Of a stretch of DNA of 64,000 nt, positions 31,005 through 64,000 are shown in pieces. Location: contig JAJEKV010000035.1 of NCBI GenBank assembly GCA_021234155.1, positions 7,995,891 to 8,059,890 on the forward strand, read 5' to 3'. Position numbers and translations under genes: made by a program. The notes below the pieces were generated by a model that did no database searches, was not told the origin of the DNA, and worked only from the letters and a program-made list of their open reading frames with translations. The stretch comes from Isoetes taiwanensis. Its lineage: Eukaryota > Streptophyta > Lycopodiopsida > Isoetales > Isoetaceae. Each line of letters begins with the position of its first letter. The stretch's first letter is position 1.

Positions 31005-31787
31005 TAGAATAAAATAGAATAGAATAGAATAGAATAGAATACATTAATGTCCCTTGTGCCGCGAGGCCCCTGGACTTGTGTAGCATGGGCGAGCTCCCTA
31101 AAAAAGGGTGCTACTAGCACATCACGCTGTTATTATGTAGCTTTTTCTGAAGGCTGACTTTTTTCTTTTAATACCGGCATCCCGCTTTATCTCGGCTTCT
31201 TGGCCGTGCAGTGATGCGTCGTTATCAATCAGCTTTTAACTGAACAATTTGTATGGGGTTTTATGACTCGTTTTGTACGAATCATATTACGAACCCTCTT
31301 TCACTGTGTACTTCTTTATGTCTTGTCAGCATTCTCTGAATCGCGTCTGCCAAATCCCGAAGCGATTCTGTTATCGTCATCAGAACGTATACCAGTTCCC
31401 CCCATCTTATACTTCTATACTTGTCTCTGATGTCTCCGTATATCGGGCAGTCATTAATCATGTGGTTCTCATCCTCTATTCCCCCACCGTCACATATTCT
31501 ACATATCCTGTCCTCCTTGTCTATCCCTCTCCACCTGTCCTTTTCTATTCTTAGATCATGACTTCCCATCCTGAATCTGGTCAGAGTGTCTCTTCTGTTT
31601 TTCCCTAATATGTTATCCCGGTACATCTGGTGTCCTATTTGCTGATCTGGGTTGAAAACCTGCGTGAGCCAGGCTGCCAGGCTGTTTTGGGGCCTGTGTG
31701 CCTTTGCAGCCATGTTCTTGTGGCTCTGTCTGCCCATTCCTCATTCCACCGCCCTTCTTCAATTAGGTCGCTCAAATTTAATCCCAT
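31005..31787 (-). mobile_element. LINE-A, 3' part (C-terminal zinc knuckle and pentanucleotide tail)
   Basis: The minus strand encodes the end of ORF2. The frame enters from the transposon junction (GLNLSDLIEEGRWNEEW) and continues through TLTRFRMGSHDLRIEKDRWR to a CCHC-type knuckle CRICDGGGIEDENHMINDC (about 31430-31510). It stops near 31282, or slightly beyond in the same frame. The element ends in a TATTC/TATTTTATTC tail at about 31006-31043 (seen on the plus strand as GAATAGAATAGAATA). The rest of LINE-A continues at 47212 on the far side of the inserted 15.4-kb transposon. Confidence 0.88.
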
Positions 31788-31817
31788 AACAAAGTTTAAA
31801 ATGAAACGCACTTATTT
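31788..31817 (+). repeat. Left terminal inverted repeat
   Basis: 30 bp from AACAAAGTTTAAAATG to ACGCACTTATTT, preceded by the CCAT target duplication. The same end recurs at 62873 with one changed base (GAAATGC for GAAACGC). Confidence 0.9.
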
Positions 31818-32329
31818 GCTGCAAACGCACTTCAAAAGGAATCTTTGAAAGATTCCCTAAAATTCCCTTAAAAAAGTCCATTTTTAAGATTTTTTTGTGA
31901 CAGGTGTGACAATTTAAGTAATTTAGGTACCATTTTTGAGGGGTTGATTGAACATAACTTTCATGCAAAAATTTTAAATAGCAATTTTTATCCTCCTAAA
32001 CTAGAACAAAAAATAATTACTTTTATAAAGCGTAGCAAAAAAGGGGCAATAAAAAAAAATAGCAAGGGTAGTAGAGTGACAAAGAAGTGATATATTCATG
32101 GTTGTGAAAATTGTACAAAATTATGAACAAAATTGTCAAAAATATAGGACATTTTGGATGAGACAATCATCACCTGCACTTTCTGTTCTTTACATGTTCG
32201 AGTCATCGGACAAACTTACATTTTGCAGCAAGATCAGGATGCATCTCATCCTCTGACTCATTTATTCCCTGATCACTTGAGCCTTCATCCTCAGCTTCAC
32301 TCTCAAAAGCTGGATGTACTTTCGAGCGA

Positions 32330-35300
32330 TCTTCTTCCTCCTTTGTCTACAAGTGAGTCTTCATCATCATCTTTTTGGCCACCTTTTTGACTTGTTTGTC
32401 TAATCCACATGCCGACCTTATTAAAGTTTGAGTGACCATCGTAACTTATTAGCGTGAGCGGTCGAACAAAGTCATATGCAAGAACCTTTACTTCAATTAG
32501 ATCTATGGCAAACAATGCTTGCTTTGGACTTAACTCTCTTTCCCACTCCTGTTTTTACCATCTCCAAAGTATAACTCCCACTGAAAGCATTGGCAGCATT
32601 CGTTCTCATCCAGTGCACTTTTAATTGAGTGGGAATTCCATCCTCTCTTGTTACCTCCAGTACTTTAGCTAGCCAGAATGGCCTCCCGTGATTCATCATT
32701 ATCATTTGGGACAGACTACTGAGCATTCCTTTTCGGAATCTCGAGGTGAACCGGATACTCGAGCAACTTGTTGTCTTTGTGCGTCTAGGGCGGTGTACAT
32801 GACTCTGTCATCTTCATCCGAGCTAGCCAATATCTCTACATGTTCCTCTTGATTCTCAACTTGCAGGGGAGAGTTTGCTTAGATGGCCGGTTGAAATATG
32901 GCGGTCTTCGACCTTGTAATGAAGCTTGCAACATGTCACGTTTAGAAAAAAAATTGAGGCCACCATAAAGCATCTGCCCTCCCAAAGTGGTTAGAGCGGG
33001 ATTTGAATACTTGTCTCAATATAATCCAATGATTTGTTTGAGTCAAATGCTCTTCCCTCCTTTTTACTCTTTGTGATTTCTTTCAAGCTTTTTAGAGGCA
33101 TTTGCTCTGCAGAGAGCATGGAACTAGTATTGGGGATGGTGCGAATGAATTGAATACCTGCTGCTGGCTGCCTTTGCAAGGATGTGGCATATTTCTTTTC
33201 CTTGTAAGATGGCCTTGCCATCTACAAGTGAAATTTTGATCGATCTTTGAAATGTAATGTTTCTCAAGGGCTCAATAGCCACGGTGACCCAGTTGATCTC
33301 TCAGAAAAATCCATTCTTTGAAATCATAAGTTTCTTCCAATAACTTCGATGTCGGGACGAGGGACTGTAGGAATCTTGGATAACCTCAATCATTCTTTGG
33401 TAGGCTGAGAGCTTTTTTCGAGCAAGGCGTTTAGAGAACCTCTTGAACATCGATCAATTTGATCGTGTGTATGACCAACAAGCGGGGAAACCAATCTTCA
33501 CCTTCTTGAAGATTTGTTTCTCTACCAACTTATAGCACAATAAGCAAACAACGCTGATTCTTATTTTCCCTTGTCGTGTTGTCTAGCTGAAGATACAGAA
33601 CCGGTGGTATATGTTCTAGATTGGAAAGAAGTTTATTCAATATTGTGATAGTGAGATTTGGATCAGCATGAATGTTTGGATAATTCAAAAATGCCTTGCA
33701 AGATAGTTTTCCATTAAATACCATAGCACCAACAACATGCAGATGTATGAAATCTTCTTCAGCAGCATCCTTAGGCACATTGACAAAATGTGGTAGGGTG
33801 GTCTTCTTCTGGTCCATTCCATCAATAACAACCGATATGTAGTTGAGTGGTTGTTCCAATGCTTTCTTCCTATGTTTTGTCAATTTTCTCCTTTCCAAAG
33901 ATTGTTGTTCTCTGTGCTTGTTCAGTTTCTCCTTCAATGCATCTGAAATGAAAATATGTTTAGGAAAGAACCTACTTTTAAGTAGAACTAGGCAAGAACA
34001 CGTCCTGGAAGCTTACTTTTAGTGTGAAGTGTCCTTGCATTTTGTCTCTGAGCTTTTAATTCAGAGCATGTAGCACAAACAGACATCCTATGCTTTCTAG
34101 GAATGGACACGCGAGAAAACTCTTTTTTCCAGAGCACAGTAAAGTAAGAGTAGCAGACAAAGCGTTCTCCAGCCTCAACACACATCTCCTTATAATTATC
34201 GTAGACTTCTTGTTTCGTGAAATTGTCACTCAAGTGGTACATAGGGCTGTTAGGGAGTTTCTCACAAGACTCCTTAAAGAAACCTTCCATCCAGGAAACA
34301 CATTGAAGGGCATGAATTCTGGTTATGCCTCCTGAATGGCAGTAGTCATTGATGCCTGGATTCTTGTCAAGCCTTTTCTTCAGGCGGTCAAGTCATCTGC
34401 TGGGTAAAAGCATGCTACGGTGTACCACTTTTGGAACCCTCAAAAGTACCTACACTGGGTACTTTTAAAACTGGTACTTTCTGTTTTTTCTTTCCATTAA
34501 AATCAATCGAAAATTTTTGAATTGAGGGTCAATAGCATGTCAATCTATAGTACTAGAGGATAACAATACTACTAATGACTAAAATAAATGAATTAACTCT
34601 CAAACTTATTTTTTATTGCGGCATTTTTGCAAGTTCCCAGTACCCAGTGCTGGGTACTTTTCTGGGTAGTTTTGTACTACCTAAATAGGTACTTTAGATG
34701 GTACACCCTAGCATGCTTTCACCCTGCTGCCTAAAGCATGAATCAATTTGAAGGCCGTTTGACAGACGGTGTGGCCACCAGCTGTGTAAGTAAACTTCTC
34801 ACCATCATCTGGCCTAATATTGAAGGCTAAGTAGCCCCTTTGGTCTAGCAGAGTCATTGAACTGTAACTATCACGAATCAACCTCAATTCCTTTAGTCCA
34901 ATCTTAAGCAAACAACGTTGAGAACAACAGTGCTTTGTATGTGTTGCTCTCAAGTGAGCCTCGTCCATGAGTTTCTTTCTTCTAACGGTTGTACATGCTT
35001 TCTTGTGTAAGTTACGCTTAAGATTCTTACTTGCAGGGGCTTTGAATTCGAACATAGAGTCTTGTGGCTTTGGTAGGTCCTCGTCCCGAGATCAACATGA
35101 GGTGTTTCTTAAATGCGAGAGATCAACTTGAGGTGTACTTGTAGATCTTTGATAGGTTTGGTGTGTGCAAGTCACGGGGGAGGTGCTTTCCCTCTCTGGG
35201 AAAAAGTAATCGAGGTTGGTGACGTAGTTGACCAGCTCCTGAAGTGTCGTAGAACACAGGAGTTGCGTGTCGCTGACTGCTCCCACTTGTTGTAGTACCA

Positions 35301-35666
35301 TTTAGCTTAAATTGATGGAGTTGGCGTGATTTGCCTCCGGGGATTTAGCCTACGGTGGACTATGGGCGACGTACTAAAATGAAGTGGAGGAGGTAGTCTG
35401 ACCTCTCTAGCCTGAGGTGGGGTAAAACGCATTGGTGGGGGCAAACAACGTTCAGAGGGAGGAGCGGGGTGTGGTGGAGTAAATTGAACTGGTGGTGGAA
35501 GCCGAGGTGGTCGTGCTGGAGTAAACTCAACGGAGCCGGGGTTTGAATATCGAGGCAGAATTTTTGAGGCTACTTCCAGGTGTCAGTTGAGGGGTGTGAA
35601 TGTCATTGCAGGAGGAAGCCTGCGAACAGGAGTTGGAGGCTCTGCAGTTCTTTTTTCTCGAGCCAT
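32330..35666 (-). pseudogene. DDE-type transposase of the DUF7869 kind, disrupted
   Basis: It would cut and rejoin the element ends. Reading leftward from ATG 35666: a proline-rich N-terminus (repeats of RLPPPVQFTPP), a Cys-containing segment with CCSQRCL and VCQTAFKLIHAL (about 34930-34720), a break by a MITE (34417-34709), then YDNYKEMC and VCATCSEL (about 34190-34060). A 74-bp GT-AG intron (34016-33943) follows, then the catalytic core: VVIDGMDQKKTTLPHF (about 33825), QLDNTTRENKNQ (about 33570) and VGHTHDQID (about 33460). These D...D blocks and the GHTH motif are hallmarks of DUF7869 proteins, as I remember the family. A C-terminal FWLAKVL...KVHWMR segment lies near 32680-32600. Several single-base frame breaks (near 35560, 34360, 33535, 33450) and in-frame stops make it inactive. 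Confidence 0.75.
34409..34717. mobile_element. 293-bp MITE inserted in the transposase gene
   Basis: Element 34417-34709 has ends ACGGTGTACCA and, inverted, AGGGTGTACCA, with a further GTACT-rich inverted subterminal region (AAAAGTACCTACACTGGGTA versus GTACCCAGTGCTGGGTAC). It is flanked by 8-bp direct copies of AGCATGCT (34409-34416 and 34710-34717). Removing it continues the transposase from ...RVKAC into FYPADDL. The 8-bp duplication suggests hAT-type mobilisation. Confidence 0.8.
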
Positions 35667-35689
35667 ACTCAGAAAGTTAGTGTCACACT

Positions 35690-35866
35690 GTATGAATTTA
35701 TCTGACGGGAGGAAAACGAGACGGTAAAAGTTCTGAGAGGGATGGTATAAATTTATCTGAGAGAAGGCAAACTTGAAGCGTTAGATGTATAAATTTATCT
35801 GAGAGATGGTATAAATTTATACTCACGGAAGGGCAACATAGAAAAGAAACGATATAAATTTATCTG
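35690..35866. promoter_or_regulatory. Half-palindrome repeats upstream of the transposase
   Basis: GGTATAAATTTATCTG or close variants occur at 35744, 35786 and 35851, with GGTATAAATTTATACT at 35808 and a diverged copy at about 35690. One half matches the 16-bp palindrome of the neighbouring array; in most copies the other half is replaced by TCTGA. They lie within 200 bp of the transposase start codon, so transcription control or transposase binding is plausible. Confidence 0.65.
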
Positions 35867-36114
35867 AAAACTCACGGAAATTTTGTATTGAAAACTTTAT
35901 GGAGAAGCTATCTAAACGGCACTTAGCAGAGGTACTTAAGGCATGGCGGCCACCCTTTTTCTACATCTGTTGCTAGGAGTCCAAAATTTCGAGTCATGCG
36001 CCTTATATACCCCCTCCAAATTGCTTCTCCGAACAGCTATAAGCGAATCCATACGACCATGACCACTGTTTTAGTTTCTCTTTTGTTTTAATCTGTTAGA
36101 GTGTAAGCGCCCAC

Positions 36115-36254
36115 GGTATAAATTTATACCGATATGGTTCTGGAGTGGTATAAATTTATACCGCTCGAGCTCGAGTGGTATAAATTTATACCGACTGTGT
36201 TCTGAAATGGTATAAATTTATACCGCTCGTGCTCGAGCCGTATAAATTTATACC
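36115..36254. promoter_or_regulatory. Regular array of five 16-bp palindromes between the two divergent genes
   Basis: GGTATAAATTTATACC starts at 36115, 36147, 36177 and 36209, and CGTATAAATTTATACC at 36239. The spacing is 32, 30, 32, 30 bp, about three helical turns, so all sites face the same side of the DNA. Spacers alternate between a 16-bp type (GATATGGTTCTGGAGT, GACTGTGTTCTGAAAT) and a 14-bp type (GCTCGAGCTCGAGT, GCTCGTGCTCGAGC), so the higher-order unit is about 62 bp. Binding by the element's own ParB-like/methyltransferase protein is a natural guess, not shown. Confidence 0.9.
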
Positions 36255-36860
36255 GTTTCAGAACCATTTCGGAATCTTGATGTGTAGTGCTTAAAGAATG
36301 GTCTTGACCCTTAATATTTTGGTAATAAAGTTGTGTTTTAAGCTTAAATGACACAAAGAAAGTGTTAATTTAGTGTAGATTTTATGCCCTTTCAGCCTCT
36401 TTTTTTAATGTTTTTGTGTTTCAAAAAATTGAAAAAGGTTGTATAAAAATGGTTTTTTTTACGCTTTTTTCAGCCCTAAGATCAAGTTCGTCCTTGGCCA
36501 ATCATCGAAGGCTGCAGGACCGCCAGAACCACAGACTTATGAACTAAAAGAACAGACTTGGTACGTCCACAGGGGGGCAAGAGAGAGCAAACCCACTGAG
36601 GTGTACCTTTACTTGTGCAACCACTCAGGGAAGGGCAAGTTCAAGACTGATGATTATTACCCTGCTGGCGAAATGATAAGCCTTGTTACTACAGAGAACG
36701 ATGATGAAGTTTTAATGCAGTGCAACCATGACAAGGGGGTGGTCTACTATGTTCTGAATAGTAGAATGCTTAGAATAAGCATGTGCAAGCCCAAAGACGT
36801 GCACGGTTACATTGCGGACAATTACAAGAACGGCTTTGTAAGTTATTCTTAGTTGCTTTC

Positions 36861-36876
36861 TATATAAATTTATACC
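36861..36876. promoter_or_regulatory. Single palindrome copy in the methyltransferase intron 36838-36907
   Basis: TATATAAATTTATACC, differing from the perfect palindrome only in the first two bases, lies inside a 70-bp intron. Confidence 0.6.
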
Positions 36877-37943
36877 GTCATTCTCTAAACTTTACCCTGC
36901 ATTACAGGACATAGTGGAAATTTTGATGTCAGTAGTGCTGTGTGAAGCAAAACTGTTGGTGAAGGGTCTATGGTACCCCCTTAATGTCGAAGAGGAAGAG
37001 AAGTACGAGGAAATAGTAGAAGAAGAGGAAGAGGAAGAGGAGGAACCAGTGGTAACAAAGGGAAAGGGCAGGAAACATTCCCTTGTAGTAGATACACAGC
37101 CTCCCACCAAGAAAAAATCTAGAAAAACAAAGCAATTGACTATAGACGAGTCAGCAGAAGCTCTTCAGAAGGCTCCTGGAGCAGACATCGTTGTGAAGCC
37201 CGCAGATAAGTCAAGTGCTATTCTCAAGCGGGTTAATGAAACCAAACTGCTCAAACAAACCATTTCTTTGACACTAAGCACTATCAAGAGGCCACCAAAA
37301 AATGAAGATGGGGTCAGAGTGCTGCAGGTCCGAAAGTTGTACGCGGCACATGTGGCCATTCTTAAGCAAAGAATGAGAAGAAATCCTCATGCGCATGTGT
37401 CGCCTCTAGTTGTTATGGTTGATAGAAGTCAATGCAATCGATTGCAGGATTACAAAAAAGCAGACTTCGAAGATTACACCTACTACGTCCTTGGAGGCAC
37501 ACACAGCTACAAGGCTAGAAAGGAAATCTCAAAGGAGGAAACCCGTAACGAGGTGTGGAAAAGCGTGGAAGCCCATATTTACGTGGGTGTCACAGACGAA
37601 GAGGCAAAAGTCATTGCCGTAAGTCACAATCTTGACAATGACTTTCGGTTAAAAATGAGCCTAATAGATAAGATCCGATTCATGCATCAAGAGTACGTGG
37701 AGTTCAAACAAATGCATGGAGAGAACTTCAAAAAACAGAAGAATAAGCTTCAAGAGCTTCGAGAAGCCTGTGTGACGGAGTGTTGCCTGAGCTATGATTC
37801 TGATAAGAAGCCCATTATGGCTGTCAAACAATACGATAACTATTTTCAGCTCGCTTTCAGGGACGGTCAAGTAAGTAAATGCTTTATTTCACTCTTTTGT
37901 AGTATGTTTAGCATGGTTAAAAGTGTATGTTTAGCCCTGGCAT

Positions 37944-38106
37944 GGTATAAATTTATACCGTTCACCTTCACGGTATAAATTTATACCGTGGGGCACTGTT
38001 TAAATTTTTACCGTGGCGGTGAAAGGTATAAACTTATACCGTGCCCTGGCACGGCAGGGCACGGTATAAATTTATACCCTTCACCTTCACGGTATAAATT
38101 TATACC
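37944..38106. promoter_or_regulatory. Palindrome cluster in the methyltransferase intron 37871-38193
   Basis: Perfect GGTATAAATTTATACC starts at 37944, 37972, 38063 and 38091, with GGTATAAACTTATACC at 38025 and a decayed copy near 38000. Paired sites are 28 bp apart and share the spacer GTTCACCTTCAC or CTTCACCTTCAC, so a two-site block was duplicated. Confidence 0.85.
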
Positions 38107-39166
38107 GTGACTAGTCACGTGCAACAATTAACAGTGGACTTTGCAACTTTTACGCCACTCAACACTAAACTTCTTGCGTTTGCGTATTTACAGGTTTGGG
38201 ACCTTCAAGAGAGAATACGGTGAGCTTAAAGAACAAACTAGCAGCGCAGGAAAAAAACCAAAAAAGGGTGGAGAATCAAAGCAAAAAAATATGAGTATTG
38301 TGCCCTGGACGCAGTTACAGGGTCTAAAAAGTAAGGAAATTTTTGTTCGCCTTCTGGAAAAAGTTGTGGCCAAGGAATTCACATTAGACGAAATGGCCAA
38401 GGAAGCTAAGACGTAAGTCTCACTTGCTATTCCGTGTTCTTCATTCCCTTCAATTGTCTTACAACATTTTTCTTTGTGCAGTCAAAAAGATATAGTCACC
38501 TGCCAGTCCGAGCTAATGAGTCAACTAAACCTAGAGGACTGGGAAGAGTGCAAGCGTTTGTATCCAACTTGTACCACTGACAGTGTCATTAGAGAACACG
38601 CTGTTAACTTCAGTGGCTGGGTAAGTTTTGCAGAAACTATGTTCTGTGTTTGTGCCTTTGTCTCACAGTCTTATTACAGAACAAGAAGAAAGGGCTGCCA
38701 GCTGGATTTTTAAACCTGGTTCGTAGGGCCAAGGAAGAAAGGCAGAGAATTAAGGCCATTGAACAAGGAAGAGAAATCGCCACCAGCAGTTTTGACACTA
38801 ATTATGAGAGATTCACAACATTTGATCAGGACTGCTTGTACAAAGTTATCGAGGGTGATTGCACGAGGCTGGGGAGTCTTTTAGAGAAACAAAATTTTAC
38901 ATTATGCATCGCGGACATTCCTTATGGTTTTAAAATCAAGGATAGTGCTTTTGACGAGGAGGCTTTCACGCATGTGCAAGTCCGCTCTTTTTTGGATGGC
39001 CTCAAGGACGTCACGATATCTGCTAACTGGAGGGTCATTATTTTCCATTCCGACCTACAGACGATGTCGGTACTTAAGCCCATGGCAGCGGTCTGTAATG
39101 CTGGTTTTGAAAACTGCGTTTGGTAAGCTTCACATTCGACGCTTCTCTGCTTTTCTAAAACTCCAC

Positions 39167-39290
39167 GGTATAACTTTATACCACAGGTGGTATAAATTTA
39201 TACAGCACGGCAACATTTGTATAAATTTATACGAATGGCTGCCGTGGTATAAATTTATACAGCAAGGCAACCATGGTATAAATTTATACC
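39167..39290. promoter_or_regulatory. Palindrome cluster in the methyltransferase intron 39123-39362
   Basis: Five copies start at 39167, 39189, 39219, 39246 and 39275; the last is perfect and the others have one to three changes (e.g. GGTATAACTTTATACC). Spacing is 22-30 bp. Spacers repeat ACAGCACGGCAAC and ACAGCAAGGCAAC. Confidence 0.8.
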
Positions 39291-39780
39291 ACCACACTAT
39301 TGTGCAAACTTCTTTTACTTGTTTTCTTTCTACTACTTTCTAATTTCTGTATTGTTTGGCAGGCTTAAAACAAACGTTAAGGGTCATGGTGGTGGTCCGC
39401 GCTTAGTGAGTTGTTTCGAGCATTTTCACATAGGGTTTTACAGCGCAGACGCCAAAAAAACCATGGTTCACTTTAACACGCAGAATGAGAAGACTCCTCC
39501 CTGCAATGCGTTTCAGTTCCCGGCGGTTTTGCAAAAATTAAGAGACCCACAGCGACAAGGCGCTGTGGTGTCCCATTATCAGAAGCCACAACGTCTTATT
39601 AATAATTTGATACAGTGGTTTTCTCACCCTGGGGACTGGATCTTAGACGCATTTTCTGGCTCAGGCACCACAGCAGTTTGCGCCCTTAAGCAGGGGCGCA
39701 ATGTTGTCTCCGTCGACATAGACCCGGACAAAATAAGTTTCATCAGGACCAGGATAAGCTCTTGTGAATCCTTTCCTGAT

Positions 39781-39795
39781 GAAAACGAGGAACTG
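39781..39795. repeat. LINE-B target-site duplication, left copy
   Basis: GAAAACGAGGAACTG, repeated exactly at 46470-46484 directly after the LINE-B A-tail. It is part of the methyltransferase coding sequence (ENEEL). Confidence 0.95.
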
Positions 39796-39862
39796 TTGGG
39801 GAATATGACTTGGCGCTACCGTGGGCGATCCTGTTGGCGCCTCGGGAAACGGGACGGATTCG

Positions 39863-40261
39863 ATGGATGAGGCAGAGGCTCTTACCTCTGCTATTCTCCA
39901 GAATCTAGTTCCCTCAGCAAATCTTGTACCCCAAGCTAGGCTAATCATCAAAACTTGGATTTCTATAGCAGCTAGTGATAGGCTTACTTTAGGTTTTTTT
40001 AATTTTCGCGGAAACTGTGACAGAGACATCCTGTGTATCCTTTCGTTCACGACGGAGGGAAGAAATCTAATCCAGAACATCAACTCTTCTGGGTGTCTGG
40101 AAACAGTTCTTAGGACTCACAATTGTGCAGACAGAATCTTGGTTCTTGAAGCAGAGCCCGGTGTTCTCAGGCTTTGTTGTCAAATTTTCGGAATCACCTC
40201 CCGTCAAGACTTGTCTCTGGGTCCAGAGATAAATATCCTGCTCCTCCAAAATGAGATCTAA
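39863..40261 (+). CDS. LINE-B leading ORF, unknown function
   Basis: About 132 residues from ATG 39863 (MDEAEALTSAILQNLVPSA...) to TAA at 40259-40261. I do not recognise the family. It ends in an 11-bp overlap (ATGAGATCTAA) with the ATG of the next ORF, the same geometry as the ORF1-ORF2 junction. The frame is open further 5' to near the insertion boundary, so the true start could be upstream if the copy is 5'-truncated. Confidence 0.5.
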   Translation: MDEAEALTSAILQNLVPSANLVPQARLIIKTWISIAASDRLTLGFFNFRGNCDRDILCILSFTTEGRNLIQNINSSGCLETVLRTHNCADRILVLEAEPGVLRLCCQIFGITSRQDLSLGPEINILLLQNEI

Positions 40262-42227
40262 GCAGCTAGCATGCAAAGGGAAACCCCTTGCTAGCAGATC
40301 CGAATATGAACCGGAGGACAATGAATCTCTCATACAGGAGAGTAGAGATTGGAAGCTGATCTTGAAACTGGAAGAGAAGAAAGATCTGGCATGGAAAAAG
40401 ATGAGGGAACTTACAGCGACATTTGATATCATCCGAGATCAGCAAAATGCAGCCATTGAATGTATGGGTATCAAGAAAGAGGGTCAGATTCTCGCCTGTC
40501 AGCAAGAAATCACCAGACTGGAGAGACAATACGCCGAGGGGAAAGCCAATGACAGGGATCTGGTCTGGAATATGATAAATAGACTCCAAGACCTTGACTT
40601 ATTGCTCTATCAGATGATTCGAGTCAAGTCCGGGCACTCCAAAGAAGACTGCTGCAGCCTCAAGAACCAAGTCTTCAAAAAATCGATGACCGACCTTCTC
40701 CAGACAACCAAGGACCTGGCAGAGGACTTAGAGCTCATGGAATGGAAATCTAAGGCTACTTTCCGACTGGTTCGGGTATGGGAGAGTGCAGATGACCACA
40801 AGATAATTGAATTCAAGGAAAAATTCAAAGAAGATCTGTCCTTGATAGCTGCAGAGGAATTAAAGAATGTGAAAGTAGAGTATGTCACCTTCATGCACAA
40901 ACTTGAACCAACCGAGGAGTGCATGATCAGTGATAGCAATGGCTACTTCAACCCCCGAGATGCAGGAGAATGCCCTTGTCCCAACTGTAAAAAAGTAGTC
41001 AGCCTCCACTTGGACAAACAGTCAACCAAGATCTCAGATTCCAAGCTTCAGTCAAAGATTCCAACTATGGGCAAGTATGACAAACTAAATGGTACGTCCC
41101 CTTCATTCAAAAATGTTCTTTTAAATTCTGATAGGGGAGAAAAGAGTAATAAAAAACAGGAAAATGACACTTATACTAAGGGGTCTCAGGTTGATCTTTT
41201 TGCTATTAAGGATAATGAGGCTAAAGTAAAATACTCTGCTAATGGGATTATGATTCATTTTCCTGCTAAGTGTCCTAACATAAGTGAGGTTAAGCATTGG
41301 TTTAACAGAGCCATAAATATCCCCATTCTTTCCATCCTTAGAATGGACTCCAAAACCTACCAAATCTTATGCAGAGACAGCAATCACAGAAAAATTATGC
41401 TCACAAGGAAAATTTCTTCCATAGCTAATTGCCGGTCTACATTATGGACCTGGAATCCCCTCTATATCCGGGCAATTTTTTCCGGTGTTGCCACTACTAC
41501 TTGGGTTTCTGCCCAAACCTTCCCCAAATTTCTGGACTCATAATCACCTTACTGCTATAGGAAGCTGTCTGGGGGAAGTTGTCGATATTTCCATTCCACA
41601 AACCGACTTCCCCTCTATCTGCATTTTGAAAGAAATTGAATCTGACTGGGAGAAATTCATTGGTACCAGGATTGATGAAGACATCTTTCTAGATGTTGTA
41701 ATCAAGTATTCTAAAATTCCTGTCAAAAAGGAATATAAGGAAGATAAAGCCCCCGATAAAGGAAAGGCTCCAATGTACCCCCGACCCTAAAAAGGTTTGG
41801 GTTCGAGAAAAAGCCTAACAAGTAGCAAGCAAGAGGGAGATCTGCAGAGGGGAAACCAAACAAACAAAGGAATGATAATCCTATAAACATCATTCCTCTT
41901 ATGATCTGCTGTGCTAATAAGGTGAATAACATTGAAAATATCAAGGCAAATAATGTGATTATCGAGGAGATTGAAGAGATGAAGGATGACAAAGCTTTAG
42001 TTATAACAGAAGAAGTTTTGGAAGAAATTCACTATGTTTATGATAGTGACCATTCTGAACAGCACTTCCTAGAGCAGGGGATTGAAAGGGACCTAGATAA
42101 AGAAGATGAAAAAGGCTCTTGGGAACTGGTCACATCAAACAGAAAAAAGAGAAATAAAAAACAAACCTTTGAAGTCTCAAGGAGAAGTTCAAGGGTCCAG
42201 AAAAAAACTGATTTTTATGGATATTAA
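40251..42227 (+). pseudogene. LINE-B ORF1 (nucleic-acid-binding protein)
   Basis: Starts ATG 40251. The first 430 residues are helical and charged, with a small zinc-binding CPCPNCKK (about 40972). A region resembling the plant L1 ORF1 DUF4283 fold follows (WFNRAINIPILSILRMDSKTY; TTWVSAQ...; HLTAIGSCLGEVVDIS). The frame slips by one near 41520-41540 and returns near 41790-41900, so the last part (41901-42227) is again in the starting frame. The two compensating indels are inactivating or sequence errors. Such proteins package LINE RNA. Confidence 0.65.
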
Positions 42228-45200
42228 CTTTAGATGTGTATCTTGGAATCTCCAAGGTATTAATTCAAATGTCAAACGAGATAGGCTAAAAGTTTGCATT
42301 TCATCGATAATCTTGACATGATTTTCTTTCAGGAACATAAGCTTCATGATGATGATTTTGAGAGGCTTATAGCTAACACCCTTCCTCCTAATTTTAGACT
42401 TTGGGCTATTAGGGCAAATAATAACTCTGCAGGTATTTCTATAGCTTGGAAAAACAGTTTAAATATATCCAACATTCAGATGATGCATGGCAACTGTGGG
42501 AGATGGCAAATTCTCCATGGAGATCTCGGAACCAAAAGGTTTGCCTTTGTCAATATCTACGCTCATAATCAGCCTGGTGAGAGAAGTCCCATGTGGAATA
42601 TAATCAGAAATAGCTTAGCTAATATCCCTTATGATAAGTGCTTTCTTGCTGGTGATTTTAACATGGTTACTCATGATTTTATGAGGAGTACTAACTTTAG
42701 ACCTCTCCTCAACCAAGAGCAGAATTCTTGGGGGCACCTTATCTCCATGCATGATCTTAAGCTGGCTAGAACTCAACCAAATACTTTTAGCTGGTTTAAT
42801 CAGAGAATTGATGACCCTATCCACTGCCTTCATGACCGTTTCTATGTCAGTGAGAACCTTTGGAACCAATGTGATAGGGTTTCCAATCTAAATGGCTTTA
42901 CTATCTCTGATCACTTTCCCCAGTTGCTGGAAATAAGAGGAGACACCTCAAATGCCAAGAGAAAATCCTACTTCAAGTTAAATGTCTCTCTTCTTGATCA
43001 GAATACCTTTCTTCCTGAATTTGAACAGGTTTATAGGAAGACCCCTAAACCTAGAGATCAGTTCGGATGGATGGAATGGTGGGTGAAAAGCGCCAAAAAA
43101 TATAAAAACGGCTCAAAATCTGGGGTAAGCAGATTTATAATCAAGAAAAGCAGTACCTGATGGACTTGAGAACTCAACTCCAGCAAACTCCCTTGGATCA
43201 GCAAGAGAATATAAAAATTCAAGTTGAGAGAGAAGAACTCAAAATTGCTAAAGGTTGGAAGCTAAAAGCAAAAATCAGGGAACTTAAGGATGATGAGAGG
43301 AGTAATTCCAAGTATTTCTTCATCAAAGCTAAAGGGAGGGCTAAGAGAAATCAGATCTATAGTGTAAAGGTCAATGGCAATCCCATCTCGAGGACAATGA
43401 TCTTAAACAAGTCGCTCTGAGATCACTTTAAGAGAATAATGGGAACCTCTCCTACTACTAGGGAGGAGAATATTGACAATTTCATTCAGATTCAGAGATC
43501 CATCCAAGATGAGCAGAATGATAGCATGAATGCTCCTTTTACCAATGAAGAACTGTGGGCAAATGTTTCAGGTATGGAAAATGGTAAGACTCCGGGTCCT
43601 GATGGCCTCCCAGTGGAATTTAAAAAAAAAACTTGGAATATTATTGGAAATGAGGTTACTAATGTGTGTAATGAGTTTTTAATTCTCGAGGGAATCTAGG
43701 CAAGTAGAATCAATACCAAACTTCATCTCCTTGATCCCTAAAATAGATGAACACGAAACTTTTCTCGATTTCAGACCCATATCCCTCACCAATGTTATTT
43801 ATAAAATCATCTCTGCTACCATAGCCTCTAGACTGAAACCTATTCTGGATCTCACCATCTCCAATACCCAAAGTGCTTACCTAAAGGATAGGTCCATTCT
43901 AGATAATGTTGCCACAGCTATCATTGGTATGCATTGGGCTAAAGAAACTAAGCAGGGACATTGCCCCGCTCAAACTGGATATTACTAAGGCTTTTGACAC
44001 GGTCATTTGGAGTTTCCTTTTCAAATGTTGTCAAATGATGGGGTTCTCCCAGGAAGTGATAAGTATTTTTCTAGCCATCCTCTACAACTCAAGATCCTCG
44101 GTTCTGATCAATGGAGAATGCAGCCCTTTCTTTGAGATAAAGAGAGGCGTCAAGCAAGGTTGCCCTCTCGCCCCTTTTCTTTTTCTTATAATCATGGAAG
44201 CCTTGAATTGTGCTTTCAAAAAAGCTGACCAGGAGAAGAGAATTGTGGGACTCAAACTTCCTGATAATCAAGAGGCATGTTTTTTCCTTAATGCTCACTT
44301 TGCAGATGACACTTTTCTCTTTGTCACTATGGAAGAAAGATCCATCACAAACACCCAAATTGTTCTCCAAGACTTTGGAAATTGCTCGGGATGTAAGATC
44401 AACCCTCTCAAATCCAAGCTCATTGCAAGAAATCAGGTAAAAGGGCAGCAAACTGCCCAAACCCTTAATTTGTGAGTATCTCTCCCCAATTATTAAATCT
44501 AAAATCTTGGGTATTCCTTTTGCTTTAAAGACTAATGCTAGTAATCTTTGGGGGGATATTATTGAGAAATTCCACAGAAAGGCTGATCTCTTAAACAGTA
44601 AATATCTGTCCAAAAATGGAAGAGCTATCTTAGCCAACTCGGTTATTTCTTCTTCTCATGTTTACCAGTCTTCTATCCTCTTAGCTCCTAAAAAGGTCAC
44701 TTCTAAACTCCAGGGCATTTTAGGTAGATTTATTGCTAGTGGGGGTAGCAACAGAACCTGGGTTCCAGTTTCCATGAAAGAATGTATGAAGAAAAGGAAG
44801 CATGGTGGTCTTGGAGTTCTGGATATTGAGAAACAAGGGCTGGCCCTGGCAGCCAAATACATTTACAGAGCTGGCCATGATGAGATTAATCACCCTGTGT
44901 CAAAGCTTATTAATTATTACCTTGCTAAGTGTAAAACCCTTGGTGGAGAAATGTGAACATGCACCTCCCTGAAAGCTTATTCTTTGATTTCAAGGTTCCT
45001 AATAATACTCCTGGAATCATTAAAAAGTGGATTAGAGCATGGAAAGCAGTTAGCAGGATGTATTCTTGGAAGGAGGGCCTTTCTAAGGATCAAACAATTT
45101 TTTGGAACCCCTCTCTAATTCTAAATAACCCTGACATCTGCTTGGCTATGCATTTTCCTATTCAGTGCAAAAAATGGTCAGATAGAGGCATCACTCACAT

Positions 45201-45885
45201 TTCTCATTTGTTTAATGATGTGGGCTTTATAGAATTTCAAAATTCAGTTCTTGCAGACATGGGTGAAGATCATGAGAGACTCTATCAAGCCATAAGGAGT
45301 TGTCTTAATGAAGGAGTGTGGCATAACCAAGAAACCCAATGGCATGTTCATGGTAACACAGGTTATAGGGTTAAAAATGCTTACAAATTCCTGACAAGGA
45401 GCTACACCATCTCCATTCATACCAAATGGGAGATCACTGAGGAGAGATGTATGGCAAATTTAAAATTCATGTGGAACTCTCCTATCAACCCCAAAATCAA
45501 AGCCTTTATGTGGCAACTCTGGCATAAGGCTTTAGCCACCAATGTAAAAAGATTTAGATTGAACATGGCTGCTTCTAACTTATGTGAGAGATGTTTACAG
45601 GAAGCTGAAGATGAAAGTCATTTGTTCAAGAACTGTTTATGGGCTGAGTGGGTACTTGAGCTAGCTGCTGAGGAATTCCAAATTCCCAACCTGTCCTCTA
45701 CCCCCCTGGTTGAAATCCTCTTTCCTAATGATCCTCAGGACTGGAGAATCTACATTCTACTCTGGAGGATCTGGAAAGCAAGGAACTCAATCATTTTTGA
45801 CCAAGAGATTATCTGGCCGATTGCAGTGATCAAGCAAACCAAATATGATATCTCTTGGATAAGAGAGATTTTCTCAATTCACTAA
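42217..45885 (+). pseudogene. LINE-B ORF2 (endonuclease and reverse transcriptase)
   Basis: From ATG 42217: an APE-type endonuclease (VSWNLQGIN; FFQEHKLHDDDFERL; LAGDFNMVTH, about 42650; TISDHFPQLLEI). The reverse transcriptase follows: NGKTPGPDGLPVEFKK (about 43580), FRPISLTNVIYKIISA, LDITKAFDTVIW (about 43975), KRGVKQGCPLAPFLF and catalytic HFADDTFLF (about 44297). The C-terminal zf-RVT-like segment is INPKIKAFMWQLWHKALATN through LCERCLQEAEDESHLFKNC (about 45490-45650). Frame breaks near 42290, 43110, 43430, 43700, 43960, 44475 and 44950 split it into pieces. Confidence 0.88.
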
Positions 45886-45972
45886 CTGTCTTCTGTTTTC
45901 TGATCTGTAGGTAATATTCTCATTGCACAAAAGAAGCTGAAGTGGAATCGGATTAATCTCGGGGTAAATTCC

Positions 45973-46233
45973 ATGTGGCTGGACCAATTCGGAGCCACAC
46001 CAACAGATTACCATGGTGATCATTGTCGTTGTGACTGTTCGTGCATTCAAAGTCTGGATGCCAGGAGAGGACTCATTTGTGAAGCAATAGACCACTCAGG
46101 TCGTTTTAACCCTTCTAAATGTCAGTCATGTAGCTGCCCGTTCTGCTCATTCATTTCTGCTACCAGAGGCATGGGCAGAAAGGATAAAAGAAAAGTTGGA
46201 GAAGCATCTGGATCTGCTAAACCAGAAATCTGA
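45973..46233 (+). CDS. LINE-B small Cys-rich 3' ORF
   Basis: 86 residues from ATG 45973 in the LINE-B 3' region, with a dense cysteine pattern: CRCDCSC (about 46028), CQSCSCPFC (about 46120) and a basic tail GRKDKRKVGE. Not part of ORF2. I do not know a matching family; a zinc-binding chaperone-like or RNA-binding peptide is possible. Conservation in other copies would be needed to call it a gene. Confidence 0.4.
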   Translation: MWLDQFGATPTDYHGDHCRCDCSCIQSLDARRGLICEAIDHSGRFNPSKCQSCSCPFCSFISATRGMGRKDKRKVGEASGSAKPEI

Positions 46234-46469
46234 AATCAGACTTATCATAGAACTATATATTAGATCATCTCAGTTTTAAGTTTTTGTTAAGTCTTATATG
46301 ACTATGGATGTAGTATCTAAGTTTTAGATTTTTCCCAGAATCTAAAAGATAGATCGAATGGGTTAATCACTTCCCAAGATAAAAAAGTTGACTTTTTGTA
46401 CTCATATATACATATGTATTTCTATGTATAACTTATTAATACAAATATAGCCTTCAATCAAAAAAAAAA

Positions 46470-46484
46470 GAAAACGAGGAACTG
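46470..46484. repeat. LINE-B target-site duplication, right copy
   Basis: Exact repeat of 39781-39795, immediately after the A-tail. Confidence 0.95.
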
Positions 46485-46725
46485 GGAGCAAAAAATGGTG
46501 CTGGGGATGTAAAAGGCACATATACAGAAATCCAGCCTCCACTTACGGGAAGAAGAGATGAGGAGGTGGAGTTCGTCGATCTGGAGCCTGTGGTGCCTGA
46601 GCCAGAGAAACAGCCTGTACCTGTACCATTGGAATCAGAAGGGGGCGTCTCTGCTATTATAACCTCGCAAGAGACTGAATCCTACGGGGAGAGAGAGTCC
46701 TGTGGACTGGGAAGAGCCACCTCCC

Positions 46726-46741
46726 GTATAAATTTATACAG
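46726..46741. promoter_or_regulatory. Palindrome copy near the 3' end of the methyltransferase gene
   Basis: CGTATAAATTTATACA, two changes from the perfect palindrome, inside the long open final exon or just past a missed splice site. Confidence 0.55.
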
Positions 46742-46850
46742 ACGGCATTTTAAACTATCTTTCATTGTAATCTATGTGCTAAGAATTTCAATATATTTTG
46801 ATGAATATTTTTCAACTGAAAACTTTCTCTCTTCAACAATGCTTAATTAG

Positions 46851-47181
46851 AACAATTCTTTTTTTGATTCATGATTTCAGACTCTTTCTCTTTTCTATGT
46901 TTGATTTTCTTAGTACTTATATTAAGCTTGCAAAAACACAAAACTATATTTCCTTCTATTTTCAACAACATATACTTAATGAGTTTTTAAATTTAATGTC
47001 TCTCTCCTCAAAACAAGCTTTTTTTTTTTTGCCCTTCTTAAAAAATGAAAAGGCTTAAAAAATGTTGCTTTTTTTGGGGTATTTCGAATGCTATTTGCTC
47101 AACAATCTATTTTGCTCCCTATTTTGTCCACTTTTTTCAAGTTTCCAATTTTTATAAAGGAATCTTTCAAACGCACTTCTT
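46851..47181. other. Right subterminal region of the large transposon
   Basis: T-rich, noncoding, ending in GGAATCTTTCAAACGCACTT just inside the right terminal inverted repeat. Confidence 0.6.
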
Positions 47182-47211
47182 AAATAAGTGCGTTTCATTT
47201 TAAACCTTGTT
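47182..47211 (-). repeat. Right terminal inverted repeat
   Basis: Complement reads AACAAGGTTTAAAATG...CGCACTTATTT, 29 of 30 identical to the left end. Followed by the CCAT target duplication (47212-47215). Confidence 0.9.
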
Positions 47212-50200
47212 CCATTTCTCTGGTCCAAACTGCCACATCTTTAAACCAACCACTTCCTGTGAGGATGTGTGCTTTTGCTGACTCGGTAATTGCGATACTG
47301 GATAGTTTTCCTTGAATGTCTCCTGCATTGTCCCTGATCAGGTACCTTATGGTCCTCTCCCATGCTCTCACCTCCATTGGTTTTTGCCCTGTTTCGAGGA
47401 TCATGATTGTTAGTGGCGTATTTGTCCTTACCCTGAATTCCTGTCTGTGCCACTGCCTAAGGATTCCTTCCTGTTTTTTCCAATTTCTGTCCGTTAGACC
47501 TGGCCCCCATGCTTCTGCCCCGTATAACTGAGTGGTGGCTACCACTGCACTGAATAAGTAGCATTTGATGTTCCAGTCAATTATTCTGCTTCTGTTGCAG
47601 AAATTCTTCATGTTAAAGTAACTCCCTATAGCTGATTAGAACCTGGCGTTGGCTCCTTTGGCCCATTTCCCTGTACCATGTGCGTCATACCCTAAATATC
47701 TATATTCCGTTGCTTCCTCTATGTCTCTTTCCTTATATCTGAAGGGTCTATGTCTATTCTTATGACCAAATATGACTATCTTGGTTTTTGCCAGATTCAC
47801 GGTCAGCCCTGTTTCTTCACAGAATTGTTCTAGAATCTTTAACAGTTTGTGCATCCCTTTGTTTTTTGTGGCCATCATGCTTAGATCGTCAGCATATAGC
47901 ATTATTGGTACTTTCGTGTCTCCTAGTGTGGGGCATAATCGTCCCCTTGCTGTTCTGTTATGTATCCCTGTAGAGCATCTATATATATTCCAAACAGAGT
48001 TGGAGATAACGGGCAGCCTTGTTTTACTCCTGTGTCACAGATTATCGGCTGTCCTTCATGTTCCATCTTAGCATATACTTTATGGTATAGTCTTGCAATC
48101 GATCCGACCATATTTATCGGGGCCCGTATGTCTATCAATCTTTTTAATAGCTTCTCCCTTGGAACTGTGTCGAATGCTTTTCTGAAATCTACAAAACATC
48201 AGATGATCTTCCTTCCCTGTGCTTTGTTCTGCTCTATTAGTATCCGAAGAGTCACCAGGTGGTCGGTGGTTGAGTGTTCCGGCCTGAATCCTGCTTGCCC
48301 TTGTGCTCTCATGTTCCCTTCTTCTGCCCATTTCTTTAGTTTGTTGTCTAGTGCTTTTCCAAACCATTTCGCGAAAATGGAGCTCACCATTATTGTCCTA
48401 TAGTTCCCTGGATCCTGTCTACTCCATGTAGTGGTATGCCTCTATTGTATGTCCACCTATCTGGGAGCCCTGTGTGTATGATGTCGTTGAAAATGTCTGT
48501 GATCTGTCTGCCGATTTCTGTCTCAGCACACTTCAGCAATTCTACAGTCAGACCATATAGATCCGGTGCTTTATGGTTAGCCATCTTGTTCAGGGCTATC
48601 ATTACTTCTAACATGCTGAAGCATGGTTTGTCCAGATCCTGCAGTCTTGGTATAGGTACCGGTGGTGCCCCTGTTTTATATAATTTATCCAGGTAATTTT
48701 CCCATCTCGCTGTTCCGATATCATCTTGTTCATTCCTTGCTTTCATACTGTTGTTCCCTTCCTTCTGTTTGAGACCCCCTCCAAAATCTCCGGGGCTGTT
48801 TCTTTAACAATTTTCCCATATACCATTGGTGTTGCGAAAGAAAGTTATCATAATCGCTTTCTTCTTTAAGAATCTTAAATAAACCGCTTTTCTTTCTCCG
48901 TACGCCTCTTTCCTCTCGCGGTCCTTTGCTTTCCTTTTTGCCCCGCGACTCATCATACCATACCGATGCTCAATGCCCCGTTTCTTTCCGGTTTTGATCC
49001 TTTTCCTGGGAAACACCTCTCATACCGCCGCCGCATTCAGCATGTTACTGAGGGTGTTTCCATTGTCGTCATACTAAAAGTCTTCCCCAATCCCATTTTC
49101 CCATTTCCTCTCTGATTGTGTGTATGAATGTTTCTGCGTATTTCTCCTGGAATTGGATCCTCATTCTGTCCTTCTTATCCTCCTTCCTTCCTGTGCTATC
49201 AATCTGTGGTGCCCCCTCTATTCTGATTGTTAACTGGATCGGTCTGTGGCTTTCTCTTTTTCCTGTTGGCCACTCCTGTAGCACTAGTCCTTCTATTCTT
49301 CCTGCTGCTTGGTCGTTCAGGATTACATAGTCCACTATGCTCTTACCGTGTGCATTCTGACTTGTAAAACCCCTTGATTCCCTCCATTTCTTTACTCCAT
49401 TAGCTATGATCATTCCCGTTGCCGTGCAGACTTCCAGCAGTAATTCACCTTTAGCATTGACCTCTGCCTTATCCTCTGTGTCTCTCTGCCATTCCTCTGC
49501 CCTTGTTGTAATGTTATCTGGGCATCTTTCTCCTCCATTTGTGTGCTTCGTGACTGTTCCTGTCTGGTTCTAGCGTTTAAGTCTCCTACTAGTACCATTG
49601 GTCCCTGTTCTTTCCATTTCATTATATTTTCCCCTAAATCCAGCAATTCTAGCTTATCACTGTTTGGCGGATAATATGTAATTATCAGAAATATTTCTTG
49701 TTTATTTCTCAATTGGATATTCAAGACCATATATCTTTTATTGACATCTGAATGTAACATACATGCACTGTTAACTACATTATTCTTTATATAACAGGCC
49801 AAACCTGCACTTCCCCTCCCTATCTTGAAGTCCTTGTCTTTCCAGCACGTGAACACAGTTGGTACCCTTCTTCCTCTGGCAGCCTTTTGACGTTATGCTC
49901 CCATGTTTCTGCTAAGCATACCCTTCTACCGTGATCGCCCTCAGTACCCCCCCTTGCAATCTGTTCTCCTGCCCCTGTTGTATTGCCTTCAGGGGGTGTA
50001 TGTTTTCCTTTTCCTTTTCTGCTTCCGTTGCTTTTGTTATCCCCTGTATCCGCACTGGCTGTTCTTGCGGTTGGGTCGCTTGCTCTCTTACTCTCTTGTG
50101 GAGGTATACCTTGCCATTCTTGACCCCCGCCTGTATCCCTGCTTGATTCAGTTCCCTGGCTTTGGCTAATTCCCTGTGTAGCCCCTGTCTCTGCATCACC

Positions 50201-59115: not shown

Positions 59116-59426
59116 ATGCGACAATGCCAGGGCCAAACCATTCATGATACTTTCGACTCCAACTCTAATGATAAGCACCACATTATGGATCCTTACAAGG
59201 GTCATGTGAGTGTTCGATGCAACATGGATCATATAAGGGGTTGGGTTAGAGGTATCCTAGATGGGGAAGTGGGCATATAGGCATTCATGATAGGACACAC
59301 ATTCTTCTACGGCTATAATGGGAACAATGCCATTCCTTATTCTGACACGAAATGCAAGCCTTAGGCATGATAGGATTTCCTACCTTCCTATTTCTTTCTT
59401 TCTTTAAGGTGGTGGTCCCTTCAACC

Positions 59427-59898
59427 ACACTATCTCAATTATTTATTAGTACTAATGTACTGTAATTCTGCAGGCCAGTAGTGCATACTATGATACCTGC
59501 AGAAGAGTTTAGGCCTTGTCTGGGGCCGCCTCTTGTTGTTTCAATGTGTCTACATGTGTGTTTTCCCTATAATCTTGTGTTGATAATCTGTATTGTCTAT
59601 TGTTAATGGACTCCGGCACTTATGTAATTCTATATTACATTATGAAGCAAGTTTATTTTCTCACACTATCTCAATTATTTATTAGTACTGATGTACTGTA
59701 CTTCTGCAGGCCAGTAGCGCATACTATGATACATGTAGAAGAGTTTAGGCCTTGTCTGGGGCCGCCTCTTGTTGTTTCAATGTGTCTACATGTGTGTTTT
59801 CCTATAATCTTGTGTTGATAATCTGTATTGTCTATTGTTAATGGACTCCGGCACTTATCTAATTCTATATTACATTATGAAGCAAGTTCATTTTCTCT
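59427..59898. repeat. Tandem duplication of 236 bp
   Basis: Two near-identical units beginning ACACTATCTCAATTATTTAT at 59427 and 59663, ending before AACTTAATTG. They lie between the chromodomain and the presumed polypurine tract of the Ty3/gypsy element, so the duplication affects its 3' untranslated region. Confidence 0.85.
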
Positions 59899-62872: not shown

Positions 62873-64000
62873 AACAAAGTTTAAAATGAAATGCACTTAT
62901 TTGCTTCAAATGCACTTCAAAAGGAATCTTTGAAAGATTCCCTACAATTCCCTTAAAAAAGTCCATTTTTAAGATATGTGACAATTTAAGTAATTTAGGT
63001 ACCATTTTTGAGGGGTTGATTGAACATAACTTTCATGCAAAAATTTTAAATAGCAATTTTCATCCTCCTAAACTAGAACAAAAAATAGTTACTTTTATAA
63101 AGTGTAGCAAAAAAGGGGCAATAAAAAAAATAGCAAGGGTAGTAGAGTGACAAAGAAGTGATATATTCAAGGTTGTGAAAATTGTACAAAATTATGAACA
63201 AAATTGTCAAAAAAATATAGGACATTTTGACGAGACACTCATCACACACTTTCATCGTTTTACATGTTCGAAGTCATCGGACAAACTTACATTTTGCAAA
63301 CAAGATCGGGATGCATCTCATCCTCCAGACTCATTTAATCCACGATCACTTGAGCCTTCATCCTCGGCTTCACTCTCAAAAGCTGGATGTACTTTCGAGC
63401 GATCTTCTTCCTCATTGTCTACAAGTGAGTCTTCATCATCATCTTTTTTGCCACCTTTCTAGGTTGTTTGTCTAATCCACATGCCGACCTTATTAAAGTT
63501 TGAGTGACCATCGTAACTTATTAGTAGCGAAATCGAGAACAAAGTCATATGCAAGAACCTTTACTTCAGCTAGATCTATGGCGGAATTGCTTGCTTTGGA
63601 CTTTGCTCTCTTTTCCCTCCTCTGTTTTACCATCTCCAAAGTATAACTCCCACCGAAAGCATTGGCAAAGATTCGTTTCTCATCCGGTGCACTTTTAGTT
63701 GAGTGGGAATTCCATCCCTCTTGTTACCTCCATTACTTTAGCTAGCGAATGGCTTTCAGATTCATCATTATCATTTGGGGAGCATGAGCATTTCTCAATC
63801 TCTCAGGTCGGAACCAGATACTTGAGCAACTTGTTCTCCGGGGAGGCAGCCTACGGTGGACTATGGGAGACGTACTAAAATGAACTGGAGGAGGTAGTCT
63901 GAGCTCTGAAGCCTGTGGTGGAGTAAAACGCATTGGTGGGGGCAAACGACGTTCAGGAGCTGGGTGTGGTGGAGTAAATTGGAGTGGTGGTGGAAGCCGA
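62873..64000. mobile_element. Second copy of the large transposon (left end), transposase deleted, runs off the window
   Basis: Starts AACAAAGTTTAAAATGAAAT and follows 31788-32770 closely, with small indels. Near 63837 it jumps to sequence matching 35336 onward (GGTGGACTATGGG, then the proline-rich ORF reading RLPPP...MRFTPP on the minus strand). About 2.57 kb holding the transposase catalytic core is thus missing, so this copy cannot mobilise itself. Whether it still carries the methyltransferase gene lies outside the window. Confidence 0.88.

Follow-up and report, generated by a model that had tools for sequence, protein, structure and literature searches.

The transposon and its two genes

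The window analysed here is a stretch of 64,000 nucleotides from the genome of Isoetes taiwanensis (contig JAJEKV010000035.1, positions 7,995,891 to 8,059,890). At 31788-47211 it contains a DNA transposon bounded by 30-bp terminal inverted repeats (TIRs), with one mismatch between the two. Pieces of a transposase gene lie on the minus strand, and a gene that joins a ParB-like part to a DNA methyltransferase is divergent from it, on the plus strand. Copies of a palindrome, GGTATAAATTTATACC, are clustered between the two genes and in introns of the second. A preliminary description of this DNA, made from the sequence alone, had proposed that the TIRs and a CCAT target-site duplication enclose a transposase gene and a divergent spliced gene. 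The ends, the duplication, a match of the transposase to DUF7869, and the intron borders bear this out. Six exons of the ParB-methyltransferase gene were traced, and the traced introns are GT-AG in 5 of 5 cases in the window copy and, in 18 relatives, at most borders but not all. The features are as follows (HTH, helix-turn-helix; LINE, long interspersed nuclear element; L numbers are other loci).

31784..31787: left target-site duplication, CCAT
31788..31817, plus strand: left TIR
33533..34012, minus strand: transposase piece with the DUF7869 core (E 3.1e-17, 33530-33937) and the first two candidate catalytic aspartates; open stretch
33991..34392, minus strand: transposase piece, middle part; open stretch, matched in L084
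34415..34723: about 0.3 kb inserted into the transposase gene (query 1516-1824, uncovered by the other matches listed)
34711..35091, minus strand: transposase piece, N-terminal part; open stretch, matched in L049, L050 and L084
35808..36254: palindrome cluster 1, six sites (four exact), between the divergent genes
36474..36837, plus strand: exon 1 as traced (5' end and start codon provisional), fast-evolving N-terminal part
36908..37870, plus strand: exon 2, with an acidic linker, the ParB-like domain and the start of the HTH part (fold from the family-B counterpart)
37944..38106: palindrome cluster 2, five sites (four exact), in intron 2
38194..38412, plus strand: exon 3, with a broken frame; most relatives have 17 nt more here
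38482..38620, plus strand: exon 4
38680..39122, plus strand: exon 5, with methyltransferase motif IV (ADIPYGF)
39167..39290: palindrome cluster 3, five sites (one exact), in intron 5
39363..39795, plus strand: first part of exon 6, with motif I (LDAFSGSGTT), cut by a LINE
46485..46849, plus strand: continuation of exon 6 beyond the LINE, ending at a stop codon
46725..46740: single degenerate palindrome (two mismatches)
47182..47211, minus strand: right TIR
47212..47215: right target-site duplication, CCAT
62873..64000, plus strand: left end of a second copy, which continues past the window (match to 31788-32772 at 89.6%, then to 35335-35505)

The methyltransferase half had been placed in the beta class of amino-methyltransferases, and this holds. 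It matches the Pfam profile N6_N4_Mtase at 58.7 bits (cut-off 26.7), and ADIPYGF in exon 5 precedes LDAFSGSGTT in exon 6, the order of motif IV before motif I that we take to be the rule for this class. The best-scoring solved structures in the PDB are CcrM, MboIIA and RsrI, presumably all N6-adenine enzymes. Because of these matches and the D[IL]PY form of motif IV, N6-methyladenine (6mA) seems a likelier product than N4-methylcytosine.

The ParB-type domain proposed for the other half is upheld by structure prediction and not by profile: of the two profiles named in the preliminary description, N6_N4_Mtase was returned and ParBc was not. The structure was predicted from 16 sequences for exon L039:1968-3386 (minus strand) of a related family, called family B and described below, which is the counterpart of the window ParB exon. 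Residues 1-251 of the model are unreliable, and later blocks mostly have a predicted local distance difference test score (pLDDT) of 54-90. Foldseek against the PDB gave 46 matches, the first 12 of which are all sulfiredoxin or ParB-type (E 1.5e-3 to 0.08, probability 0.75-1.00), and the ParB-type matches include Myxococcus ParB, PadC and a pNOB8-like ParB. In PHROGs the ParB-like matches were weak, with E 0.018 for the exon of family B and 0.094 for that of the window. A profile built from 16 sequences and run against those of the PDB did not return any ParB. On the strength of the model, the exon is assigned a predicted ParB/sulfiredoxin fold and is not called a member of ParB. Exon 1 (36474-36837) is without a profile match. 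The nearest named proteins to the ParB-methyltransferase are two from the fern Adiantum, and fern proteins of this kind are therefore likely to be in databases already, unnamed.

The transposase is best seen in family B, where exon L039:5711-7426 (plus strand) matches DUF7869 with E 1.5e-51. Among 28 transposase sequences Asp 129 and Asp 171 are invariant and Asp 49 is nearly so; these three residues are a possible catalytic triad of the DDE/D type. The model of this exon (pLDDT 80) gave weak RNase H-type matches with Foldseek (best E 8.8e-4). Its C-terminal part matched BAH chromatin-reader domains with a probability of up to 0.98 and weak E values (0.03 or weaker). The nearest named relatives come from Ceratopteris, Adiantum and the liverwort Riccia, with lancelet, clam and green-algal proteins further off.

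A palindrome specific to the family

When up to two mismatches were allowed, the window had 18 sites of GGTATAAATTTATACC, 9 of them exact. Every site is within the element, and shuffling gave a mean of 0.04. Six lie between the divergent genes. Introns 2 and 5 have five each and intron 1 has a single degenerate one; the last, also degenerate, is in the 3' part at about 0.5 kb from the terminus. The whole assembly of 1,658,258,908 bases in 1,110 contigs was then searched. It contains 7,218 exact sites, while the reversed control and a palindrome of equal composition, GGTTAAATATTTAACC, have none.

The palindromic form was examined with one half-site, GGTATAAA, as an anchor at 19 family-A loci, family A being the family of the window element. 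There were 565 hits with both strands counted, and three scrambled anchors gave 0-2. The eight bases of the other half agreed at 0.94, 0.99, 0.98, 0.97, 0.95, 0.91, 0.87 and 0.69; the next base beyond agreed at 0.70 and the following five at 0.27-0.40. Palindromes of the window copy agreed with those of 15 relatives at 0.951 upstream, 0.906 in intron 2 and 0.927 in intron 5, compared with 0.780, 0.658 and 0.756 for neighbouring bases (L010-L012 and thinly covered columns excluded). Judged by these alignments, the conserved unit is the palindromic site and not the repeat unit. Spacing within the arrays is 28-32 bp, where only spacings below 110 bp were listed. A second site code within family A was considered and rejected, as only variants were found, mostly in the outer bases.

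A second family with its own palindrome

Ten loci (L003-L008 and L039-L042) with a related ParB-methyltransferase make up family B. They stand for eight places, because L003/L040, L005/L041 and L001/L039 coincide. Their ParB region is about 50-56% identical to that of family A. They carry arrays of GTGTATTCCGGAATACAC and are without the family-A palindrome; the different palindrome, with the core GTATTCCGGAATAC and often extended to AAAGTGTATTCCGGAATACACTTT, is present in 10 of 10 loci, at a spacing of mostly 41-42 bp. Exact genomic sites of GTATTCCGGAATACAC number 3,000 on the forward and 2,974 on the reverse strand, with 0 for the control. The two codes do not cross over: the B core is found in 0 of 19 family-A loci and the exact A site in 0 of 10 family-B loci. 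No palindrome of at least 14 bp was found in 3.6 kb of L002, a family-B-like end, or in 3.7 kb of L001; L039, of the same element as L001, has six.

The match between site and family was also approached from the sites. Ten regions covering all but one of the listed A-site clusters were fetched, as were ten of the listed B-site clusters, which are not all of them. Sequence of the site's own family outside the arrays was present in 10 of 10 A regions and 10 of 10 B regions, in L047 through a match to the short element L085. Four of the ten A regions adjoin coding sequence of full elements (L045, L049, L050 and L052), and the other six are parts of short elements.

One family-B element spans about C976:450896-459268, with bounds set by hand. 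It is framed by TIRs and a duplication of TTAA, and its transposase exon, long and open, is divergent from the ParB-methyltransferase. Its ends resemble family-A ends, and A and B therefore look like related lineages with diverged sites. In the alignment of the two proteins, the stretch before the conserved DN[YW]FQLAFR reads MAVKQY in A and SLISH in B. We infer that the recognition helix may start at this stretch.

The family in the genome

Exact copies of the 21-bp TIR core number 683 on one strand and 682 on the other, with 0 for the reversed control. Among 100 places listed there were 23 inward-facing pairs of neighbouring TIRs, of which 13 are spaced at 8.3-9.4 kb, 4 at about 2.2 kb and 6 otherwise. 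Perfect 4-bp duplications, all of different sequence, flank 10 of 10 pairs whose ends were fetched (7 long, 3 short), and the window copy and the C976 element add to these. A 4-bp target-site duplication is a trait of Sola1 transposons, and the family of the window transposon shares it.

The preliminary description had expected other copies to pair these TIRs with the methyltransferase, and they do. Among 18 relatives found by the DNA of the gene, 12 have a TIR within the 1.5 kb fetched beyond it. L084, chosen by TIR spacing alone, has TIRs and 20 exact palindromes; the transposase, the ParB exon and exons 5 and 6 of the methyltransferase all find matches in it, and its reading frames are interrupted. 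The two copies said to lie within 31 kb were also found, the second with its TIR starting at 62873. This copy is without most of the transposase region, since its alignment to the first copy skips from position 32772 to 35335, and it runs off the window. Genome-wide, a first look with the N6_N4_Mtase profile picked out 1,443 candidates, more than one family being included, and all of the 150 that were scored were over the cut-off; a DNA search with the transposase gave 3,180 candidates, 40 of them scored. Contamination was rejected because of the introns and the many dispersed copies, which agrees with the earlier view of a resident eukaryotic element. Viral relatives were not found when P0001, A1 and A3 were compared with viral contigs and P0001 with phage records. 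The genome thus holds a large family of DNA transposons with TIRs, 4-bp duplications, a DUF7869 transposase, a gene for a predicted ParB fold and a beta-class amino-methyltransferase, and palindromes.

Selection was estimated from the ratio of nonsynonymous (dN) to synonymous (dS) substitution. The median dN/dS of the ParB exon is 0.05 (dN 0.025, dS 0.52; 152 pairs, 18 copies), and that of exon 1, which evolves faster, is 0.31 (164 pairs, 19 copies); pairs with dS <= 0.02 were excluded, as was copy L026 for exon 2. Against the decayed window copy alone, with dS <= 0.05 excluded, the medians are 0.09 for exon 2 and 0.13 for exon 5. In family B, exon 6 has a dN/dS of 0.05-0.09 in 6 of the 9 loci, where it was computable with dS near saturation; most family-B values were not computable because dS was saturated. 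Of the copies matched to the window copy, 3 have stops in exon 1, 10 in exon 2, 4 in exon 5 and 9 in exon 6. Selection preserves the gene in lineages that move, while individual copies decay.

Short, gene-poor elements

Elements of about 2.2 kb that are poor in genes retain the TIRs and the palindromes. The short element L085 was retrieved in full. Both of its TIRs are present, its duplication reads AGAA, and it contains five exact palindromes; the proteins of the two genes have no match in it. Seven short copies agreed with L085 at 0.80 for palindromes, compared with 0.65 for the spacers of the arrays and 0.72 for the remainder. A decayed remnant of exon 1 is present in L044 and L047, and the short elements are therefore not all gene-free.

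State of the window copy and neighbouring sequence

The window copy is dead, because 17 nt are missing in exon 3 (219 nt, compared with 233-241 nt in 18 relatives), a LINE interrupts exon 6, and the transposase gene is broken by stops and the insertion of about 0.3 kb. The LINE-like element, about 6.7 kb at 39796-46469, has a poly-A, a 15-bp target duplication and frames that by eye are endonuclease-like and reverse-transcriptase-like. The sequence of the 34415-34723 insertion also adjoins family-B sites in L055 (85.8%) and partly in L057, so that it is a repeat of its own. Minus-strand frames flank the transposon at 31282-31737 and 47195-48746; by eye they resemble parts of one reverse-transcriptase-type element, which the transposon apparently entered and split. 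At 59426-59897 there is a tandem duplication of about 237 bp with 96.6% identity.

Proposed function and alternatives

The preliminary description had offered recognition of the element's own ends as one possible function. The positions of the palindromes do not favour it: introns 1, 2 and 5 hold 11 of them, the space between the genes holds 6, and the 3' part has a single one. Recognition of the element's own DNA is strongly supported, since each family has its specific palindrome. Our preferred reading, to which we give a probability of about 0.6, is that the ParB/HTH part binds the putative parS-like palindromes of its own family and brings the methyltransferase to the element's DNA, and that the sites act in mobility. 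The ParB/HTH part would bind the palindrome as a dimer, and the enzyme so delivered would set 6mA, or less likely N4-methylcytosine, on nearby element DNA. In the least certain step, the bound protein or the mark would affect the DNA in its role as a mobile substrate, both in cis and in trans. The most likely effect would be to keep the DNA open or license it for transposition, besides regulating the divergent promoter. The weakest link in this argument is the step from the retention of sites in gene-poor elements to a role for them beyond gene regulation, in which they would serve the DNA as a substrate of mobility or protection. A fuller version is more tentative, and we lean somewhat away from it: here self-recognition and methylation of the ParB-parS kind, with a family palindrome code and probably 6mA, would license only the family's own full and gene-free copies for movement or expression.

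The transposase might instead be what binds the palindromes, which would then serve as internal enhancers in the assembly of the transpososome, with the ParB-methyltransferase doing something else. Sites kept in short elements are what would be expected of transposase sites, and divergence between A and B extends to their transposases (dN 0.43-0.53). However, the 18 window sites all lie away from the termini and outside the transposase gene, and the perfect two-fold symmetry suits an HTH dimer such as ParB, which makes this explanation unlikely.

Another explanation is that the ParB-methyltransferase is an autoregulator, tuning expression through the shared promoter and the introns, with DNA methylation incidental. 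One family-A cluster does lie between the divergent genes, and so does the large array of L039. The persistence of sites in short elements after gene loss, as in L085, does not fit this explanation, nor does the conservation of the methyltransferase exons (family B exon 6, above), and we regard it as quite unlikely.

It is improbable that the palindromes are functionless minisatellites spread with the elements. They do form tandem arrays, with spacings of 28-32 bp or 41-42 bp, but the spacers diverge while the palindromes do not, the arrays are at three separate places of one element, and each family has a palindrome of its own. That the host has taken over the enzyme as a genome-wide marking system is highly improbable despite the purifying selection on the ParB exon, since the copies examined are dispersed, transposon-borne and mostly decayed; no search for a single-copy host gene was made.

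Several observations weigh against binding and methylation by the ParB-methyltransferase. The ParB-like part has no match to the Pfam profile ParBc. None of the Foldseek matches reached E <= 0.001, those to ParB and sulfiredoxin being 1.5e-3 or weaker. ParB and sulfiredoxin have an arginine in their nucleotide motif, and the motif here, GG[NTS]HS, has serine at that position. Since the transposases of the two families have diverged too, covariation of protein and site does not point to the ParB protein in particular. The comparison covered two site families only, and GTAT-N6-ATAC is common to both sites. The short elements may be one lineage. Finally, exon 1 and exon 6 show weaker constraint against the window copy, with median dN/dS values of 0.30 and 0.33.

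Anti-silencing, seen as retention of CpG, was also considered and rejected, as the observed/expected ratio of CpG gives no consistent signal of protection (element 0.63, flanks 0.58 and 0.57, nested LINE 0.27, two family-B loci 0.37 and 0.54). With up to three mismatches there are 98 B sites, of which 41 are exact, 10 have the centre CCAG, 4 CTGG and 4 TCGG. From their sequence, the CCAG and CTGG centres are the expected products of CpG decay and count against protection from host 5-methylcytosine.

Relation to known systems and significance

Bacterial ParB-parS resembles the proposed system in having a ParB/sulfiredoxin-type fold, which is predicted here, and clustered palindromic sites. It differs in that the Isoetes protein is fused to a methyltransferase and has serine in place of the arginine of the nucleotide motif; a ParA partner was not noticed in the element, and no search aimed at ParA was made.

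The closest precedent is Sola1-1_Ec32, a 21.5 kb DNA transposon of the brown alga Ectocarpus assigned to Sola1; according to the accessible part of the report, its accessory gene, opposite the transposase, has a ParB-like domain and an N4C/N6A methyltransferase, and its authors suggest self-binding and self-marking (PMC12477816). The Isoetes element likewise has both parts in one gene, opposite the transposase and inside TIRs. Its transposase is assigned to DUF7869 only. Similar proteins are described there for green and red algal transposons (PMC12477816). The gene class is therefore known and this is not a first, and the finding is less isolated than it appeared in the preliminary description. 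That part of the Ectocarpus report mentions no palindromic sites, and the word "palindromic" has 0 occurrences in it (PMC12477816).

Two other eukaryotic systems are comparable, as far as the accessible parts of their reports go. The N4CMT of bdelloid rotifers is also a bacterial-type amino-methyltransferase in a eukaryote, but it belongs to the host, has a chromodomain and contributes to transposon silencing, and it is not transposon-borne (PMC8885841). Fungal DNA transposons carry TET/JBP dioxygenases and thus also have a DNA-modification enzyme on board, but the fungal enzyme removes methyl groups, and ParB has 0 occurrences in the accessible text (PMC12730594). In a literature search with preprints and most subscription papers outside its scope, we found no report of palindromic site arrays in such transposons or of a ParB-methyltransferase transposon in a land plant.

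The printed suggestion that transposon ParB-methyltransferases mark their own DNA can now be put to direct tests, with two target sequences and two predicted specificities. About 7,200 and 3,000 genomic sites can be scored by long-read base calls. If the proposed function is true, it would provide a defined enzyme with defined targets in a plant-type genome, where 6mA is contested, and transposon families of one genome would be separated by a DNA address code.

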